From assembly GCF_900167335.1 (NCBI RefSeq), contig NZ_FUXI01000013.1, forward strand, positions 1 through 41,152: 41,152 nt of DNA. Reading direction: 5' to 3'. The stretch is from Pilibacter termitis (GTDB taxonomy: Bacteria > Bacillota > Bacilli > Lactobacillales > Streptococcaceae). Below are positions 1 through 31,743 of the stretch, piece after piece (the first letter of the stretch is position 1; every line of letters starts with the position of its first letter). The notes beneath the pieces were generated by a model. That model ran no database searches. It saw only the letters and a program-made list of their open reading frames with translations, and had not been told where the DNA came from. A program made the position numbers and the translations under genes.

Positions 1-38
1 GAACAGTTGCCAGACTTCAGCACCATGTAGCTAGACAA
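1..38 (+). repeat. Right end of family-1 palindromic repeat (copy A, cut by window edge)
   Basis: The window opens inside a copy of the dispersed palindrome described for copy D. Only the right arm is visible: GAACAGTTGCCAGACTTCAG, then the conserved tail GTAGCTAGACAAAG. It runs head to tail into copy B. Confidence 0.75.
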
Positions 39-40
39 AG

Positions 41-163
41 AAAAGTGTAGAGGGGCGTTCAGGAGTTTGCGACAGCGAACTATGTCGTTCATTCACTTGA
101 AGCGTTAGCTTCAAGCGACATTGCGAGCAGTCGCCCAACTCCTGCCCCTCGTAGCTAGACAAA
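41..163 (+). repeat. Family-1 palindromic repeat, copy B
   Basis: This is a full-length copy. The outer arms are GAGGGGC with GCCCCTC and CAGGAGTTTG with CAACTCCTG-like bases. The middle stem is ATGTCG with CGACAT, and the apical stem is CTTGAAGC with GCTTCAAG. The tail GTAGCTAGACAAAG runs directly into GGAG, the ribosome binding site of treP, so the repeat touches the translation signal. No separate promoter is visible in bases 1-174, so treP may be transcribed from further upstream. Confidence 0.85.
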
Positions 164-4169: not shown

Positions 4170-5675
4170 ATGTCAAAAATTGAATTAAAAAATATGAGTT
4201 TTAGTTACGGTGGAGAGCGTGAAGTTTTTCAAAAAGTTGATTTGACGTTAGAAAGTGATTGGAAACTTGGGTTGATTGGACGAAATGGACGAGGAAAAAC
4301 GACATTGTTGCGTTTGTTAACAGGTGAACTTTGTTGTTCTGGTGAAATTATTCACCAGATGAATGTTGTTTATTTCCCAGAGAAAATAGAAAATCAAAAT
4401 GAGCTGACACTTTTTGCTTTGCAGGAAATTAGAGAGTTTGAGCAATGGAAATTGGAGCGAGAGCTACATTTGTTAAATGTTGATTTAGATGTTTTGTATT
4501 CACCATTTTCTACGCTATCTGGAGGAGAAAAAACGAAGGTGTTGCTTGCACTTTTGTTTCTGGATGAGCAAAATTTTCCATTAATAGATGAACCGACTAA
4601 TCATTTGGATATGAAATCAAGAGAAATTATAGCAAGCTATTTGAAAAATAAACGACAGGGATTTATTGTAGCAAGCCATGATAGAGAGTTTGTCGATAAA
4701 ATTGTTAATCATGTGCTGACGATTGAAAAGACACAACTTATGCTTTACAAAGGGAATTTTTCCACCTATGAGGAGCAAAAGAAACGCCGAGATGAGACGG
4801 AAATGGCTCAAAACGGGCAACTGAAAAAGGAAATCGTTCGCTTGAAGAAAACAACTAGAGAGAAAAAAGAGTGGAGTTTGAACAAAGAAGGTGAAAAAAG
4901 AGGTGCTGCCGATAAAGGCTTTATAGGTGCAAGAGCGGCACGGCTAATGAAAAAATCTAAGAATTTAGAGAGGAGAATGGAAAAGGAAATTGAGCAAAAG
5001 CAGTGTCTGTTAAAGGAAATCGAGGAGACAAGAGAATTGAAAATGAATTTCACCCCTAGTCATCATAAGAGTATTTTTACTGTTGAAAATTTGACACTTT
5101 CATTTTCAGAAAAGAAATTATTTCTTCCAATTTCTTTTGAACTGAAAAAAGGAGAAGTTTTGGCGATTCAAGGAATGAACGGCATAGGAAAAACTTCACT
5201 TATTCACGCTCTATTAGGTAATTTTCAAGGAGAAATGACAGGAGAAATTCATGCAGTTCAAAATATGAAAATTTCCTATGTTCATCAAGAGCATGAAGGG
5301 AATAAAGGCACGTTGTCAGAATTTGCGAAGAAGAAAAAGATTGACTACGAGTATTTCCTCAATAATTTACGAAAACTCGGCATGGAAATGGAAGTATTTA
5401 GTCAAAAAATCGAAAATATGAGCTTAGGTCAAAGAAAAAAAGTAGAACTTGCGAAATCTTTAACAGAACAAGCAGAACTCTATGTTTGGGATGAGCCGTT
5501 GAACTATTTGGATGTGTTCAACCATGTTCAAATCGAGAACGTTATCAAAAATTTCAAACCAACAATGATTGTAATTGAGCATGACAAACGGTTTATTGAG
5601 AATGTAGCAGAAAAGGTAGTAAAATTAGAACGAAAAAAATTATCGGAACAAGCAAATAAAATCCTTTTGTCATAA
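4170..5675 (+). CDS. ABC-F ATPase, Lsa-like antibiotic resistance ribosome protection protein
   Basis: Soluble protein with two ABC cassettes and no membrane segment (501 aa). Cassette 1 has Walker A GRNGRGKTT (37-45), signature LSGGEKTKV and Walker B LIDEPTNHLD. Cassette 2 has GMNGIGKTS, the variant signature MSLGQRKKV and VWDEPLNYLD. Both catalytic glutamates are present. A long basic helical linker (about 195-295) joins them; this region reaches the peptidyl-transferase centre in the family. DWKLGLIGRNGRGKTT closely resembles the Lsa/Vga-type proteins that protect against lincosamides, streptogramin A and pleuromutilins. The attenuator-like leader supports an antibiotic-induced role. Drug specificity cannot be read from sequence, and a housekeeping ABC-F is less likely. 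Confidence 0.85.
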   Translation: MSKIELKNMSFSYGGEREVFQKVDLTLESDWKLGLIGRNGRGKTTLLRLLTGELCCSGEIIHQMNVVYFPEKIENQNELTLFALQEIREFEQWKLERELHLLNVDLDVLYSPFSTLSGGEKTKVLLALLFLDEQNFPLIDEPTNHLDMKSREIIASYLKNKRQGFIVASHDREFVDKIVNHVLTIEKTQLMLYKGNFSTYEEQKKRRDETEMAQNGQLKKEIVRLKKTTREKKEWSLNKEGEKRGAADKGFIGARAARLMKKSKNLERRMEKEIEQKQCLLKEIEETRELKMNFTPSHHKSIFTVENLTLSFSEKKLFLPISFELKKGEVLAIQGMNGIGKTSLIHALLGNFQGEMTGEIHAVQNMKISYVHQEHEGNKGTLSEFAKKKKIDYEYFLNNLRKLGMEMEVFSQKIENMSLGQRKKVELAKSLTEQAELYVWDEPLNYLDVFNHVQIENVIKNFKPTMIVIEHDKRFIENVAEKVVKLERKKLSEQANKILLS

Positions 5676-5703
5676 AAGTAACGATAAAAAATGGTAGAAT
5701 AAA

Positions 5704-5824
5704 GAAAAGCGAAGAGGGGCGAATTGAAGTCTGTGGCAGTGAACCGTGCCGTTTACTTGCTCGAAACGAGTTTCGAGCGGCACTGCGAACAGCCACCAGA
5801 CTTCAGCCCCACGTAGCTAGACAA
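5704..5824 (+). repeat. Family-1 palindromic repeat, copy C
   Basis: First of three tandem head-to-tail copies. The arms are GAAGTCTG with CAGACTTC, GTGCCG with CGGCAC, and apical CTCGAAAC with GTTTCGAG. It ends with CGTAGCTAGACAA. It starts 28 bases after the ABC-F stop codon, and no other terminator was seen for that gene. Confidence 0.9.
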
Positions 5825-5946
5825 GGAAAAGCGGAGAGGGGCGTTCTGAAGTTTGCAACAGTGAGCCGTGCCGTTTACTTGCTCGAAACGAGTTTCGAGC
5901 GGCACTGCGAACAGTTGCCAAACTTCAGCCCCTCGCAGCTAGACAA
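5825..5946 (+). repeat. Family-1 palindromic repeat, copy D (reference copy)
   Basis: Reference unit of about 120 nt. It runs AAAAGCGGAGAGGGGC, GAAGTTTGCAACAGTG, GTGCCG, apical CTCGAAACGAGTTTCGAG, CGGCAC, AACAGTTGCCAAACTTC, GCCCCTC, then tail GCAGCTAGACAAAG. Almost all of it can fold into one long stem with small bulges. It encodes no protein. No flanking duplication was identified. Confidence 0.92.
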
Positions 5947-5947
5947 A

Positions 5948-6033
5948 GAAAAGCAAAGAGGGGCATTCTGAAGTCTGCAACAGTGAACATAGCCTCAAGT
6001 AACGTTGAGACCCTTTACCAGACCTCAACTCTT
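5948..6033 (+). repeat. Degenerate family-1 repeat, copy E
   Basis: The left arm is well kept (AAAAGCAAAGAGGGGC, GAAGTCTGCAACAGTGA). The centre and right arm have decayed to CCTCAAGTAACGTTGAG and CCAGACCTCAACTC. It abuts the ribosome binding site region of the next gene. Confidence 0.7.
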
Positions 6034-6058
6034 ACAAATTGAAAAGGAGGATACAAAT

Positions 6059-7720
6059 GTGAAAATCGTAATTATTGGTGGTGTGGCAGCAGGAACGAGT
6101 GTGGCGGCGAAGGCACGAAGAAATGATGAACAGGCAGAAATTGTAATTTTTGACAAAGATACGGACATTAGCTACGCAGTTTGTGGGATTCCTTATGTTT
6201 TTACAGGAGAAGTGGAAAATTTTGATGAGCTATCTCCACGTGATACCACGTTTTTTAAGGAAAAGTACAATGTTGATATTTTTACAAGACATGAGGTGCT
6301 GGATGTTTCTTATCAAGAGAAAAAAATCATCGTGAAAAATTTAAAAAATGACGAAATATTTGAGGAACATTTTGATAAGTTAGTATTTGCAACGGGGACG
6401 TATTTTAACACACCAGAGGTTTTCCAAAATGTGCAAGCGAAAAATGTTTTTAGTGTGAAAGATATCACTTCTGGTAAAAATATCATGAATTATCTTGAGC
6501 AAGAAGAGGCGAATTCAGTTGTAATTATCGGTGGTGGTTTTGTCGGTTTAGAAATGGCAGAACAGCTGAAAAAGCGTGGTATAGCTACTTCTATCGTGGT
6601 TCCTCACAATCAAGTAATGTCAACATTTGATGAGGATTTGGCATTGAGAATTGAGGACGAAATCACACGTCAAGGGATTTGGCTGATTAAAAATAGTGAA
6701 ATTGTAGAAATTCAAGGCGACAAACGAGTGAAAACGCTTGTTTTAGAGGGCGACCAAGAGCTTTCAGCTGATTTCTTTATTGTGGCAACAGGAGTGAAAC
6801 CTCTCGTTACACTGGCGGAAAAAATAGGTGTGAAATTGGGCGAAACAGGGGCAATTCAGGTTAATTCGAGCATGGAGACCAATCTGGAAAATGTTTATGC
6901 AACGGGAGATGTTGCTGAAAAATTTTCTAGGATAAATGGAAAACCGTTATGGCTACCACTTGCTACGCACGCAAATAAAGAGGGACGTATCGCAGGAGAT
7001 GCCATGACAGGTGGAAGTTCACGAAATCAAGGCATTTTAGGTACGAGCATTTTACGTTTTTTTGATTTGACGATTGGGCAAACAGGTTTGAGTGAAAAAA
7101 TGGCGAAAAAGCAAGGTTATGACGTAGAAATTTTATATAATCAAAAAAATGACCGTCCAAATTATATTAGTGATAAAAAAATCTTGATAAAAGCAGTAGC
7201 AGACAGGAAAACGCATCAGCTCTTGGGGGTACAAATTATTGGAAACGCTGGTGTTGACAAGCGTTTGGACGTTTTTGCAACGGCTCTTTCCTTTGGTGCG
7301 AAAGCAGAAGATTTATTTCAGCTGGACCTTGCCTATTCGCCAGTGTATTCGACGACAAAAGATCCTGTGAATTATACGGGAATGGCACTTACCAACGCTC
7401 TTTCAAGGGGAAAAATGATAACTCCAGCCAAACTTTTAAGCTGGCTAGAAGCGGGTGAAGAACTTCAGCTGATAGATGCTAGACCTCTTCAAGAGTATGC
7501 AGAAAATCACATTGAGGGAGCAAAAAATATTCCACTCAAAGAGTTGCGGACACATCTTCAAGGGCTGGATAAGGAAAAACGAGTGGTTGTTTACTGTAAT
7601 ACAGGCGTAACAGCTAATGCTGCTCAAAACATTTTGTTAAATGAGGGATTTAAAGAAGTTTACAATTTAAACGGTGGCAATGTGAATTATCAAATGATGA
7701 GGAATCATATGGATGGTTAA
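6059..7720 (+). CDS. CoA-disulfide reductase-like flavoprotein with C-terminal rhodanese domain
   Basis: FAD/NAD(P)H-dependent disulfide reductase of the NADH oxidase / CoA-disulfide reductase group, 553 aa. It shows an N-terminal FAD fold (IIGGVAAG), single active cysteine C42 in SYAVCGIPY, a second nucleotide fold (VVIIGGGFVGLEM) and YATGDVAE. The C-terminal domain (about 455-553) is rhodanese-like with active cysteine C513 in VVVYCNTGV. Reductase-rhodanese fusions are linked to reduction of CoA disulfide, persulfides or polysulfides and to redox stress. The GTG at 6059 is the start because AAAAGGAGG lies 8 bases upstream; earlier in-frame codons lie in repeat sequence. Water-forming NADH oxidase is the other family option, but the fused rhodanese argues for sulfur metabolism. 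Confidence 0.85.
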   Translation: MKIVIIGGVAAGTSVAAKARRNDEQAEIVIFDKDTDISYAVCGIPYVFTGEVENFDELSPRDTTFFKEKYNVDIFTRHEVLDVSYQEKKIIVKNLKNDEIFEEHFDKLVFATGTYFNTPEVFQNVQAKNVFSVKDITSGKNIMNYLEQEEANSVVIIGGGFVGLEMAEQLKKRGIATSIVVPHNQVMSTFDEDLALRIEDEITRQGIWLIKNSEIVEIQGDKRVKTLVLEGDQELSADFFIVATGVKPLVTLAEKIGVKLGETGAIQVNSSMETNLENVYATGDVAEKFSRINGKPLWLPLATHANKEGRIAGDAMTGGSSRNQGILGTSILRFFDLTIGQTGLSEKMAKKQGYDVEILYNQKNDRPNYISDKKILIKAVADRKTHQLLGVQIIGNAGVDKRLDVFATALSFGAKAEDLFQLDLAYSPVYSTTKDPVNYTGMALTNALSRGKMITPAKLLSWLEAGEELQLIDARPLQEYAENHIEGAKNIPLKELRTHLQGLDKEKRVVVYCNTGVTANAAQNILLNEGFKEVYNLNGGNVNYQMMRNHMDG

Positions 7721-11668: not shown

Positions 11669-11700
11669 AAGTTTTTCAAAAAACTTAGGGATAATAGCAA

Positions 11701-11771
11701 GGTTGCCTCTAAAAATTCACGCTTACCCAAAATAGCTAATTTTGTTTTAACCGGAATTTTTAGAGATTCCC
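11701..11771. repeat. Family-2 palindromic repeat, copy 1
   Basis: The outer arms are GGTTGCCTCTAAAAATTC and GGAATTTTTAGAGATTCCC. The inner part, CGCTTACCCAAAATAGCTAATTTTG, matches the core seen at 23341 and 31466. It starts at the base next to the stop codon of the ArAE gene and may act as that gene's 3' hairpin. Confidence 0.75.
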
Positions 11772-22389: not shown

Positions 22390-22414
22390 GAAATCGTCCA
22401 ATAAGGATAGTAAC

Positions 22415-22467
22415 TACGAGGGGCGTTTTGAAGTCTGTGGCAGCGACCAAAATCTTGTCCCTCATAA
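22415..22467 (+). repeat. Collapsed family-1 repeat in the sorbitol operon 5' UTR (copy F)
   Basis: The left arm GAGGGGCGTTTTGAAGTCTG and a short right arm CCAAAAT..TGTCCCTC remain. The central stems and the GTAGCTAGACAA tail are lost. The remnant still pairs (GTTTTG with CAAAAT, GAGGG with CCCTC) and lies between the start point and the ribosome binding site. Confidence 0.7.
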
Positions 22468-23290: not shown

Positions 23291-23340
23291 ATTTTAATCG
23301 TTATCTAGTTTGCGGATATGGAATTGCTATATAATTAGAC

Positions 23341-23398
23341 ATGGCTACCTCTAAAAACTCGCATTTACTCAAAATTGCTAGTTTTTAGAGATACCCAT
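23341..23398. repeat. Family-2 palindromic repeat, copy 2
   Basis: A compact 58-base element: ATGGCTACCTCTAAAAACT pairs with AGTTTTTAGAGATACCCAT around the shared core CGCATTTACTCAAAATTGCT. It sits between srlD and the PRD regulator gene and may form an intercistronic RNA hairpin. Confidence 0.8.
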
Positions 23399-23476
23399 AT
23401 AAAATAGAACGACTTTTTCAATAAATAATCGTTTTATTTCAAAAAAATTATAGAATGTGGATGAGGAAGTGAAAAG

Positions 23477-25309: not shown

Positions 25310-25344
25310 TTTCTAAAAAAATAATGAAAGCAGGGGAACGAATC

Positions 25345-25830
25345 ATGAATGAATGGCTATTGTTAGGTGTTATTATGCTAAGCGTGTATCTTTTGCAAGT
25401 GTTGTTTGGCTTAAAGCAAATTCAAAATTTTAACAAGACGTATAAAGAATTGCGAAGTCTTGGGAAAGTGGCGATTGGCAAAAGAGCAGGGAAAATCCGA
25501 TCTGGTACGATTGTGATGTTTGCATTAAATAAAAAAGGAGAAATTCAACGAGCGGTAAAAATGCAAGGTGTGACGGTTCTCTCAAGGTTTAAAGAACAGC
25601 CACAATTTGTAGGTTTAGAGCTAATGGTTTTGACGGAGGAACATCCATTAATGATAAAAATGGATAAAATAACACGACAAACCATTTTGAATGCAACAGA
25701 ATTGTACCAAAGAATAGAAGAGGGCGATTACAAAGAGGAGAAAAAAGAGGCACCAATCAGCTTTCTTGCAAGTAAAGTAGGCTATCACATGAACAAACTA
25801 GCGGTAAAGAAAAGCGAAGAAGTGCGTTAA
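25345..25830 (+). CDS. gutM: Glucitol operon activator GutM
   Basis: 161-residue GutM/SrlM family protein. One N-terminal membrane helix (about 2-20, LLLGVIMLSVYLLQVLFGL), then a soluble part with QNFNKTYKELRSLGKVAIGKR and the G.I.MFALN.KGEI pattern of the family. GutM assists activation of sorbitol genes in enteric bacteria. The ATG at 25345 is preferred, with AGGGGAA upstream; an ATG at 25324 lacks a site. The last codons and stop (residues KKSEEVR) are encoded by the beginning of family-1 repeat copy G, so the native C-terminus has been replaced or extended. Confidence 0.85.
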   Translation: MNEWLLLGVIMLSVYLLQVLFGLKQIQNFNKTYKELRSLGKVAIGKRAGKIRSGTIVMFALNKKGEIQRAVKMQGVTVLSRFKEQPQFVGLELMVLTEEHPLMIKMDKITRQTILNATELYQRIEEGDYKEEKKEAPISFLASKVGYHMNKLAVKKSEEVR

Positions 25831-25930
25831 GGAGTTTGCGACAGTGAGCCATGCCATTTACTTGCCTGAAGCACAGCTTCAGGTGGCATTGCGAACAGTT
25901 GCCAAACTCCTGCACTTCGTAGCTAGACAA
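25806..25930 (+). repeat. Family-1 palindromic repeat, copy G
   Basis: Full copy. The arms are GAAGTGC with GCACTTC, AGGAGTTTG with CAAACTCCT, ATGCCA with TGGCAT, and apical CCTGAAGC with GCTTCAGG. The conserved tail CGTAGCTAGACAA follows. Its first 25 bases overlap the 3' end of gutM. Confidence 0.9.
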
Positions 25931-25932
25931 AA

Positions 25933-26055
25933 CGAAAAGCGAAGTAGTGCGTTTTGAATTTTGTCGCAGTGAGCCATGCCATTTACTTGCCTGAAACACA
26001 GTTTCAGGTGGCATTGCGAACAGTGACCAAAATTCAGCACTACGTAGCTAGACAA
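25933..26055 (+). repeat. Family-1 palindromic repeat, copy H
   Basis: Full copy, tandem with G. The arms are GTAGTGC with GCACTAC, GAATTTTG with CAAAATTC, ATGCCA with TGGCAT, and apical CCTGAAAC with GTTTCAGG. Compared with G the sequence changed in both arms of the outer, middle and apical stems. Confidence 0.9.
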
Positions 26056-26128
26056 GAAAAGCGAAGAAGTGCGTTAAGGAGTTTGCAGTAGCAAAACAGT
26101 TCATTTATTCACTGCGAACTTCAACCAA
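26056..26128 (+). repeat. Degenerate family-1 repeat, copy I
   Basis: The left arm is identical to copy G (AAAAGCGAAGAAGTGCG, TTAAGGAGTTTGC), but the centre is shortened to AGTAGCAAAACAGTTC and the right arm to CACTGCGAACTTCAACC. It ends before the ribosome binding site of srlA. Confidence 0.7.
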
Positions 26129-31465: not shown

Positions 31466-31743
31466 GGGCACCTCTAAAAAACTCCGCTTAAGACTAAATT
31501 AGCTAGTTTTTCGATTATCGAGGAAATCGACGAAAGCTATGTGGTTCATAGAAAAGCGGAGAGGGGCGGTCAGGAGTTTGTCGTAGTGAGCCACAGCATT
31601 TATTTACTGGAAACGAAGTTTCCAGTGCTGTTGCGAACTGCGACCCAACTCCTGCCCCGTATAGCTAGACAAGGTTGAGGAGATTGACGAAGAAAATCGG
31701 AAAACTAGCAATTTAGGATAAGTGCGAGTTTTTAGAGGTGCCC
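31466..31743. repeat. Family-2 palindromic element, copy 3, with a nested family-1 repeat
   Basis: The left arm (31466-31517) starts GGGCACCTCTAAAAA and includes TAAATTAGCTAGTTTTTCGATT. The right arm (31692-31743) is its near-complement, ending TTTTTAGAGGTGCCC. Between them lie a 16-base imperfect direct repeat (31519-31534 and 31676-31691, GAGGARATYGACGAA core) and a complete family-1 copy. No transposase is encoded; it looks like a miniature inverted-repeat element that took up another. Confidence 0.8.
31551..31672 (+). repeat. Family-1 palindromic repeat, copy J
   Basis: Full copy nested in the family-2 element. The arms are GAGGGGC with GCCCC, CAGGAGTTTG with CAACTCCTG, CAGCA with TGCTG, and apical CTGGAAAC with GTTTCCAG, again a different but matched set. 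The tail is GTATAGCTAGACAA. Confidence 0.88.

Follow-up and report, generated by a model that had tools for sequence, protein, structure and literature searches.

The stretch of Pilibacter termitis DNA analysed here (41,152 nt; hereafter, the window) carries a dispersed palindromic repeat that is probably a non-autonomous mobile element of ~121-122 nt, whose insertion into purine-rich sites is directional and which is maintained as a hairpin. The original prediction had proposed a repeat family selected as folded RNA or single-stranded DNA. Selection on folding is supported below by compensatory change, by constraint on paired columns and by a comparison of G·U with A·C changes. Beyond that prediction, the units were recognised as insertions, in sense orientation at stop codons, with relatives across Bacilli.

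The unit is a long hairpin with non-symmetrical ends

Six full and four partial copies of the ~122-nt unit were found in the window, all on the plus strand (Table 1), in agreement with the number first predicted; the stem pairs quoted at that time are present as written. The consensus is [A/C]GAAAAGCG…AGCTAGACA, with [A/C]GAAAAGC as the first bases and AGCTAGACA(A) as the last. The conserved ends GAAAAGCG and AGCTAGACA are non-symmetrical, i.e., they are not inverted copies, and between them the unit forms a single long hairpin. Six folded strands (four copies, two of them as both strands) had energies of -48.7 to -60.6 kcal/mol, which is more stable than dinucleotide shuffles by 5.1-7.8 s.d. 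A loose pattern of the unit was found 3 times in the window (0.00 expected). Rfam gave no match in the window at the gathering score and none at E<=1 for positions 5600-6100. The ABC-F gene at 4170-5675 is near the Lsa family, under its curated cut-off (691 vs 750 bits).

Table 1. Copies of the unit and its host MITE in the window
Feature	Position	Strand	Basis
Unit 3' part, cut by the window start	1..38	+	nhmmer hit, model positions 86-123; sequence
Full unit, followed directly by Shine-Dalgarno-like AGGAG and ATG	39..162	+	
Full unit, first in array, 27 nt past the stop of ABC-F gene 4170-5675	5703..5824	+	
Full unit, head-to-tail with unit 5703-5824	5825..5946	+	
Partial unit, head intact, rest degenerate, ~10 nt 5' of the next gene's AAAAGGAGG	5947..6031	+	
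Partial unit, 5' arm only, 5' of a gene start	22414..22456 (approx.)	+	nhmmer E 9.8e-5; sequence
Full unit overlapping the end of ORF 25324-25830	25808..25930	+	
Full unit, second of array	25933..26055	+	
Partial unit (head), then AAAAGGAG and ATG	26056..26119	+	
Full unit at the apex of a MITE	31550..31672	+	
Host MITE (GGGCACCTCTAAAAA ... TTTTTAGAGGTGCCC) split by unit 31550-31672	31466..31743	.	empty vs filled copies

The genome contains several hundred diverged copies in head-to-tail arrays

The P. termitis genome (2.79 Mb in 59 contigs) gave 254 matches to a genome-wide pattern that required both ends to be exact (145 forward and 109 reverse, with at least one copy matched twice), and the reversed control pattern gave none. 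We fetched 116 stretches around hits; with one further stretch and the window, these 118 contain 209 of the 254 exact matches. In them, nhmmer found 454 hits, comprising 325 full, 74 head-only, 53 tail-only and 2 internal ones. Scaling the 325 full copies by the fraction 209/254 gives an estimate of ~395 full copies in the genome. Several contigs begin or end in or near arrays (e.g., C10, C12, C17, C23, C35, C51 and C53), so the copy number is probably underestimated. A covariance-model search, which the original prediction had called for, scored 150 of 1875 candidates, and 150/150 had E<1e-25.

Units are arranged head-to-tail in arrays of 1 to 8 hits. The gap between tail and head was 0 nt at 202 of 247 junctions and 2 nt at another 35, and the only neighbours on the opposite strand were weak hits of the palindromic unit on itself. 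Nearly all full copies (316/325) are distinct in sequence. Adjacent copies were only slightly more similar than random ones (0.783 vs 0.767), yet the nearest copy lay in the same array in 79 of 247 cases (1.9 expected). The arrays therefore appear to be partly local duplications and partly mixed.

The stems covary, and changes that break pairs are disfavoured

The two arms had been predicted to change together, and they do. RNAalifold on 26 copies gave 39 pairs, 25 of them with changes on both sides. In this alignment, 97.9% of the cells were paired, compared with 85.2% when the letters of the 3' side were shuffled (0 of 500 shuffles came up to 97.9%) and 32-41% when the partners were slid. 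The covariation score was 0.435 vs 0.180 in shuffles. One of the five measures applied to the 26 copies, the number of further pair types, was not above the shuffles (42 vs 42.9). Coupling was also measured as mutual information with average-product correction in 314 of the 325 full copies (identical copies and those shorter than 118 nt were left out). The most coupled column pairs were predicted pairs in 9 of the first 10, 15 of the first 20 and 20 of the first 40, and about 95% of the stem cells were Watson-Crick pairs. These column counts are not independent, because the copies are related and recombine.

Since related copies may covary by descent, nearest copies were also compared, using 72 independent pairs that differ at no more than 6 positions. 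Between these near-identical copies, change per 100 was 1.85 in paired columns and 5.13 in unpaired ones (4.84 without the loop and the first column), i.e., paired columns were 2.6-2.8-fold less changed. Of 91 single changes in stems, 54 left a standard pair in place; the expected share was 25.5%. Thus, the stems covary strongly and pair-breaking changes are disfavoured. Arms that mutate independently had been named as the result that would speak against selection; this was not obtained, though some copies have mismatched halves.

The selected form is most likely the folded sense strand

Raw counts on the sense strand gave 240 G·U and 90 A·C. Changes between C and T exceed those between A and G at unpaired columns too, so this excess is partly mutational. 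We replaced the raw counts by a partner-matched test, in which the kind of change is held constant and only the partner differs. In the 72 pairs, C/T changes per 100 sites were 2.29 opposite G (giving G·U) and 0.77 opposite A (giving A·C); A/G changes were 1.41 opposite T and 0.42 opposite C. At looser limits the ratios were 2.1 to 2.8. Changes that give G·U were thus tolerated two to three times as often as changes of the same kind that give A·C, and the combined log ratio had z = 3.8, 4.3 and 5.5 at three limits, which share pairs. This difference in tolerance argues for selection on the folded sense strand, and the selected form is most likely that strand, most simply as RNA. In DNA, too, G·T is milder than A·C, which leaves room for sense single-stranded DNA as the selected form.

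Folding energies also favoured sense over antisense (283 to 27 in copies of P. termitis and 120 to 6 in Bacillales copies). The controls failed, however: shuffled Bacillales copies favoured sense 100 to 27, and an unrelated MITE favoured one strand 47 to 0. The energy comparison was therefore not used as evidence.

The unit inserts precisely into a MITE

The MITE split by a unit in the window is unrelated to the unit. It is a ~152-nt imperfect palindrome with the ends GGGCACCTCTAAAAA / TTTTTAGAGGTGCCC, and its target duplication is 4 bp in 42 of 50 copies (e.g., TTAA or ATAT) and 3 bp in one; seven copies have none. A joined-flank query found at least 40 uninterrupted or near-full-length copies in the genome (40 scored of 234 candidates). 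Related shorter stretches of the MITE are located in the window at 23334-23405 and 11698-11743.

The apex TTCATAGGTT was present in 30 of the 31 empty copies read. An empty apex has the form GTGGTTCAT AGGTTGAGG, and a filled one the form GTGGTTCAT AGAAAAGCG…GACA AGGTTGAGG; most of the 23 filled copies read TTCAT-[AGAAAAG or CGAAAAG or CAAAAAG…GACA]-AGGTT. Comparison of empty with filled copies thus shows that the 121-122-nt unit entered at T^A and duplicated no more than a single A. Insertion is precise and 5' to an A, the unit has no terminal inverted repeats, and the target duplication is at most 1 bp.

By eye, filled MITEs carry at least four kinds of unit at one base, sometimes as arrays. 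Either repeated insertion or a single insertion followed by gene conversion would explain the different units. In a tree of 50 MITE copies, empty and filled ones were intermixed with little resolution; one of the 22 copies labelled as filled (L366) looks like a MITE that holds another MITE instead of a unit.

Units in P. termitis mostly lie sense, beside stop and start codons

To analyse placement, ORFs were called crudely around 154 arrays in the P. termitis genome. Within -4..10 nt, 56 arrays have a stop codon on the head side and none has one on the tail side; in other words, 56 start at a sense stop and 0 end at an antisense stop. Within -4..40 nt, 36 arrays have a start codon on the tail side and 1 has one on the head side. 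In gaps between codirectional genes, the count was 84 sense to 9 antisense, 6 of the latter riding inside the MITE described above. In convergent gaps, 19 of 22 arrays were closer to the sense stop, and in divergent gaps, 14 of 15 were closer to the sense start.

Inspection by eye added detail to both borders. The A or AG with which the unit opens often completes the stop codon, and some arrays have a TATAAT-like box just 5'. Directly 3' of the tail there is often A-AGGAG…ATG, a terminator-like hairpin or a leftover head. At array ends (e.g., L195, L163 and L119), leftover heads such as AGAAAAGCGGAGAGG seem to be the Shine-Dalgarno sequence of the next gene. When the flanks of 65 arrays are joined, the sequence is rich in purines, approximately AAA^AA(G/A)AA; this set still includes a few MITE sites.

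Relatives in other Bacilli share the ends, not the stems

Searched with blastn, the window units had no match in 57 relatives, of which 1 belongs to the genus of P. termitis, 33 to its family and 23 to its order. A pattern built from the ends only matched 26 of 398 Bacilli genomes including P. termitis (25 of the 397 others), belonging to 16 of 146 genera, and the reversed control matched none. In this sample, neither the 26 further members of the P. termitis family nor the 12 of its order were positive. P. termitis was the richest of the 26 carriers, with 154 matches; the next highest count was 16. A scan of named contigs yielded at least 118 stretches, and the 80 listed among them were almost all Bacillaceae and Planococcaceae by name. 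The family is found across Bacillaceae- and Planococcaceae-type genomes and in one genome from another order. The stems of the relatives share little sequence with the window units; ends, tandem habit and fold energy agree, and the length was 117-125 nt in 124 of 135 regex hits. Three regex hits in unrelated sequence (L258:2415, L222:5891 and L287:6493) were left out, as were L227 and L277 (Anaerotignum and Sphingomonadales MAGs, with unit-like ends only). Plasmids gave no blastn match to the unit. Viral contigs gave four pattern matches, of which three look like chance in coding DNA and one (L387) is unit-like.

Orientation in Bacillales was counted at 116 of 118 loci with 125 arrays. Within -4..10 nt of a stop codon, 33 arrays have their start at a sense stop, as against 1 with its end at an antisense stop. 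There was no overall orientation bias (38 sense and 36 antisense in codirectional gaps; start-codon contact 7 to 4), and the 38 loci added after the first 78 weakened the sense bias. One-sided contact with stop codons is thus a feature that the relatives share, and a general sense bias is not.

Five Bacillales arrays lie, by eye, 3' of the end of 23S rRNA. In Cytobacillus oceanisediminis 2691, a joined-flank query found 11 rRNA-spacer sites; an interruption of 121 nt was present in 7 of them and one of 54-55 nt in 2, and the remaining 2 were uninterrupted. Of the 11, 8 were read: 6 were filled, and the 2 empty ones differ by a few bases, which makes the exact ends less certain in this genome. 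In Rossellomorea-type loci (L231, L260, L266 and L280; similarly L286 and L289), units are located inside another palindromic repeat (…CTGCGGGA-unit-GTCTCAC…CCCGCAGGAGTC), possibly a second empty-site system.

Candidate enzymes and alternative explanations

We searched 18 of the 26 carriers and 17 non-carriers, hand-chosen from the Bacilli sample, for candidate mobilising enzymes. A group II intron or other retroelement is unsupported as the source: reverse transcriptase (PF00078) had no match in the P. termitis genome, and its presence (3/18 carriers and 4/17 non-carriers) does not track the carriers. Y1 transposase as the mobiliser is likewise unsupported. Y1_Tnp (PF01797) had no match in the P. 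termitis genome, with 5 of 14 control genomes positive, and its presence does not track the carriers either. A REP/REPIN-like element, moved as single-stranded DNA by a Y1 HUH transposase (RAYT or IS200/IS605 TnpA) that needs the fold for cleavage, would be palindromic, non-coding and high in copy number, with a target duplication of at most 1 bp, as the unit is, and 11 of the 18 tested carriers have a Y1_Tnp match. On the other hand, the richest carrier has none, nor do 7 of the 18 carriers, whereas 9 of the 17 non-carriers do, and no unit lay near any of the 30 Y1 loci read. We therefore consider this explanation unlikely. The selection on sense pairing would also fit an intercistronic RNA domesticated by the host, in which hairpins that are cut by RNase III or stop exonucleases tune adjacent genes and are kept by host selection. 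The sense placement in P. termitis, with a stop codon on one side and a Shine-Dalgarno sequence or terminator-like hairpin on the other, agrees with such a role. Units are found in MITEs and rRNA spacers too, however, and array size ranges from 1 to 8 hits. The unit was missing from the 57 relatives screened with blastn and from the 38 same-family or same-order genomes screened with the pattern, and Bacillales relatives have no overall sense bias. Domestication is accordingly a tentative alternative, with the balance against it.

Two further explanations concern the hairpin as such. Quasi-palindrome correction is a known mutational process, and template switching that copies one arm onto the other could produce covariation, including the ~95% of Watson-Crick cells, without selection. 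Such copying would erase asymmetric internal loops and bulges, which are instead conserved, and it does not predict that G·U is tolerated above A·C of the same class; we regard it as very unlikely. Finally, long GC-rich hairpins directly past stop codons could be intrinsic transcription terminators multiplied by duplication. But TTTT follows within the next 12 nt in only 1 of 364 intact tails, and there it is 3' of a Shine-Dalgarno sequence. Many arrays lie between codirectional genes, and some are, by eye, 5' of separate terminator-like hairpins. Terminators are thus a highly improbable origin.

A proposed mechanism: a directional element kept as a folded transcript

For the preferred reading, a non-autonomous mobile element, the following mechanism may be proposed. 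The target would be a directional stretch of purine-rich sequence, for example the interval separating a stop codon from a Shine-Dalgarno sequence, or else the head (AAGAAAAG) of an older unit. A directional target of this kind would lead to sense placement and to array growth 5' of an existing head. Once inserted, the unit would be transcribed together with the neighbouring genes, and its folded sense RNA, at about -55 kcal/mol, would be kept by selection. The reason may be that an unfolded insert harms the mRNA, that the hairpin controls how mRNA is processed or stabilised between genes, or that only well-folded copies can be mobilised. The ends GAAAAGCG and AGCTRGACA are shared across Bacilli, unlike the stem sequences, and are presumably recognised by a trans-acting factor.

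We also considered a more specific version, in which transcription itself directs insertion. Nascent mRNA, or DNA opened by transcription, would offer the purine-rich sites between stop and ribosome-binding site, so that units land in sense, the folded sense RNA is selected, and a conserved Bacilli enzyme recognises GAAAAGCG…AGCTRGACA. As a complete scheme, this is quite unlikely.

Small bacterial repeats, such as REP and MITE, are usually read as DNA parasites. Here, insertion in one family is precise, contact with stop codons is one-sided, and selection on folding of the sense strand can be measured. The family offers testable cases for the effect of an intergenic hairpin of ~-55 kcal/mol on polycistronic mRNA. 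It also raises the question of which enzyme moves an element without inverted ends and, in the richest genome, without a detectable Y1 transposase or reverse transcriptase.

Comparison with known systems

Our literature search found no description of a repeat with these ends; as subscription journals were thinly covered, we do not claim that the family is unpublished. Integron attC sites are long imperfect palindromes past stop codons, with structure kept while sequence varies and with the conserved ends RYYYAAC…GTTRRRY. The unit resembles them in being an imperfect palindrome at stop codons, with structure kept, sequence varying and conserved ends. In contrast to attC, RYYYAAC/GTTRRRY ends were not seen by eye, and units stand in tandem without genes between them.

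REP/REPIN sequences are GTAG- and CGTC-tagged palindromes that go with RAYTs and are high-copy, non-coding, mostly downstream of genes, plausibly transcribed and presumed to be mobile (PMC3733652). The unit shares the high copy number, the non-coding palindrome, the location mostly downstream of genes, plausible transcription and presumed mobility. It differs in its ~122-nt length, non-symmetrical ends, head-to-tail arrangement, sense position at stops and a genome without Y1 transposase. REP sequences are defined by a GTAG or CGTC tag 5' to a palindrome of 20-40 nt, with inverted pairing for REPINs; in the unit, the sense strand has GTAG, GCAG or ATAG 3' to a stem of ~100 nt, and units are head-to-tail.

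MITEs such as RUP, NEMIS, bcr1-bcr3 and EFAR are described as small, non-coding, hairpin-forming and often co-transcribed (PMC3733652, PMC3446304, PMC6542083). The unit is like them in being short and non-coding, with many dispersed copies, precise insertion and a hairpin. A MITE of a DDE transposon has terminal inverted repeats and a target duplication of at least 2 bp. The unit has no pair of terminal inverted repeats and a duplication of at most 1 bp, and it inserts into a genuine MITE that has both.

Among stem-loop clustering repeats, Bhal-1, Efa-1 and Sta-1 are intergenic stem-loop families of low-GC Gram-positives, of 74, 163 and 105 nt (PMC2267715); compared by size, the unit differs from them. 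Bacillaceae-1 RNA (RF01690; PMC2864571) is a structured element in Bacillaceae, as the unit is. It has another structure and a length of 67, and it had no match in the window. Two RF01690 matches are nested inside units of a Bacillales relative (L249:6060-6127 and 6302-6367), which suggests that Bacillaceae-1 RNA is an inserted repeat itself. The unit works like a non-autonomous element of the REP or MITE type, but it lacks defining features of the REP/RAYT, DDE-MITE, terminator and retroelement families.
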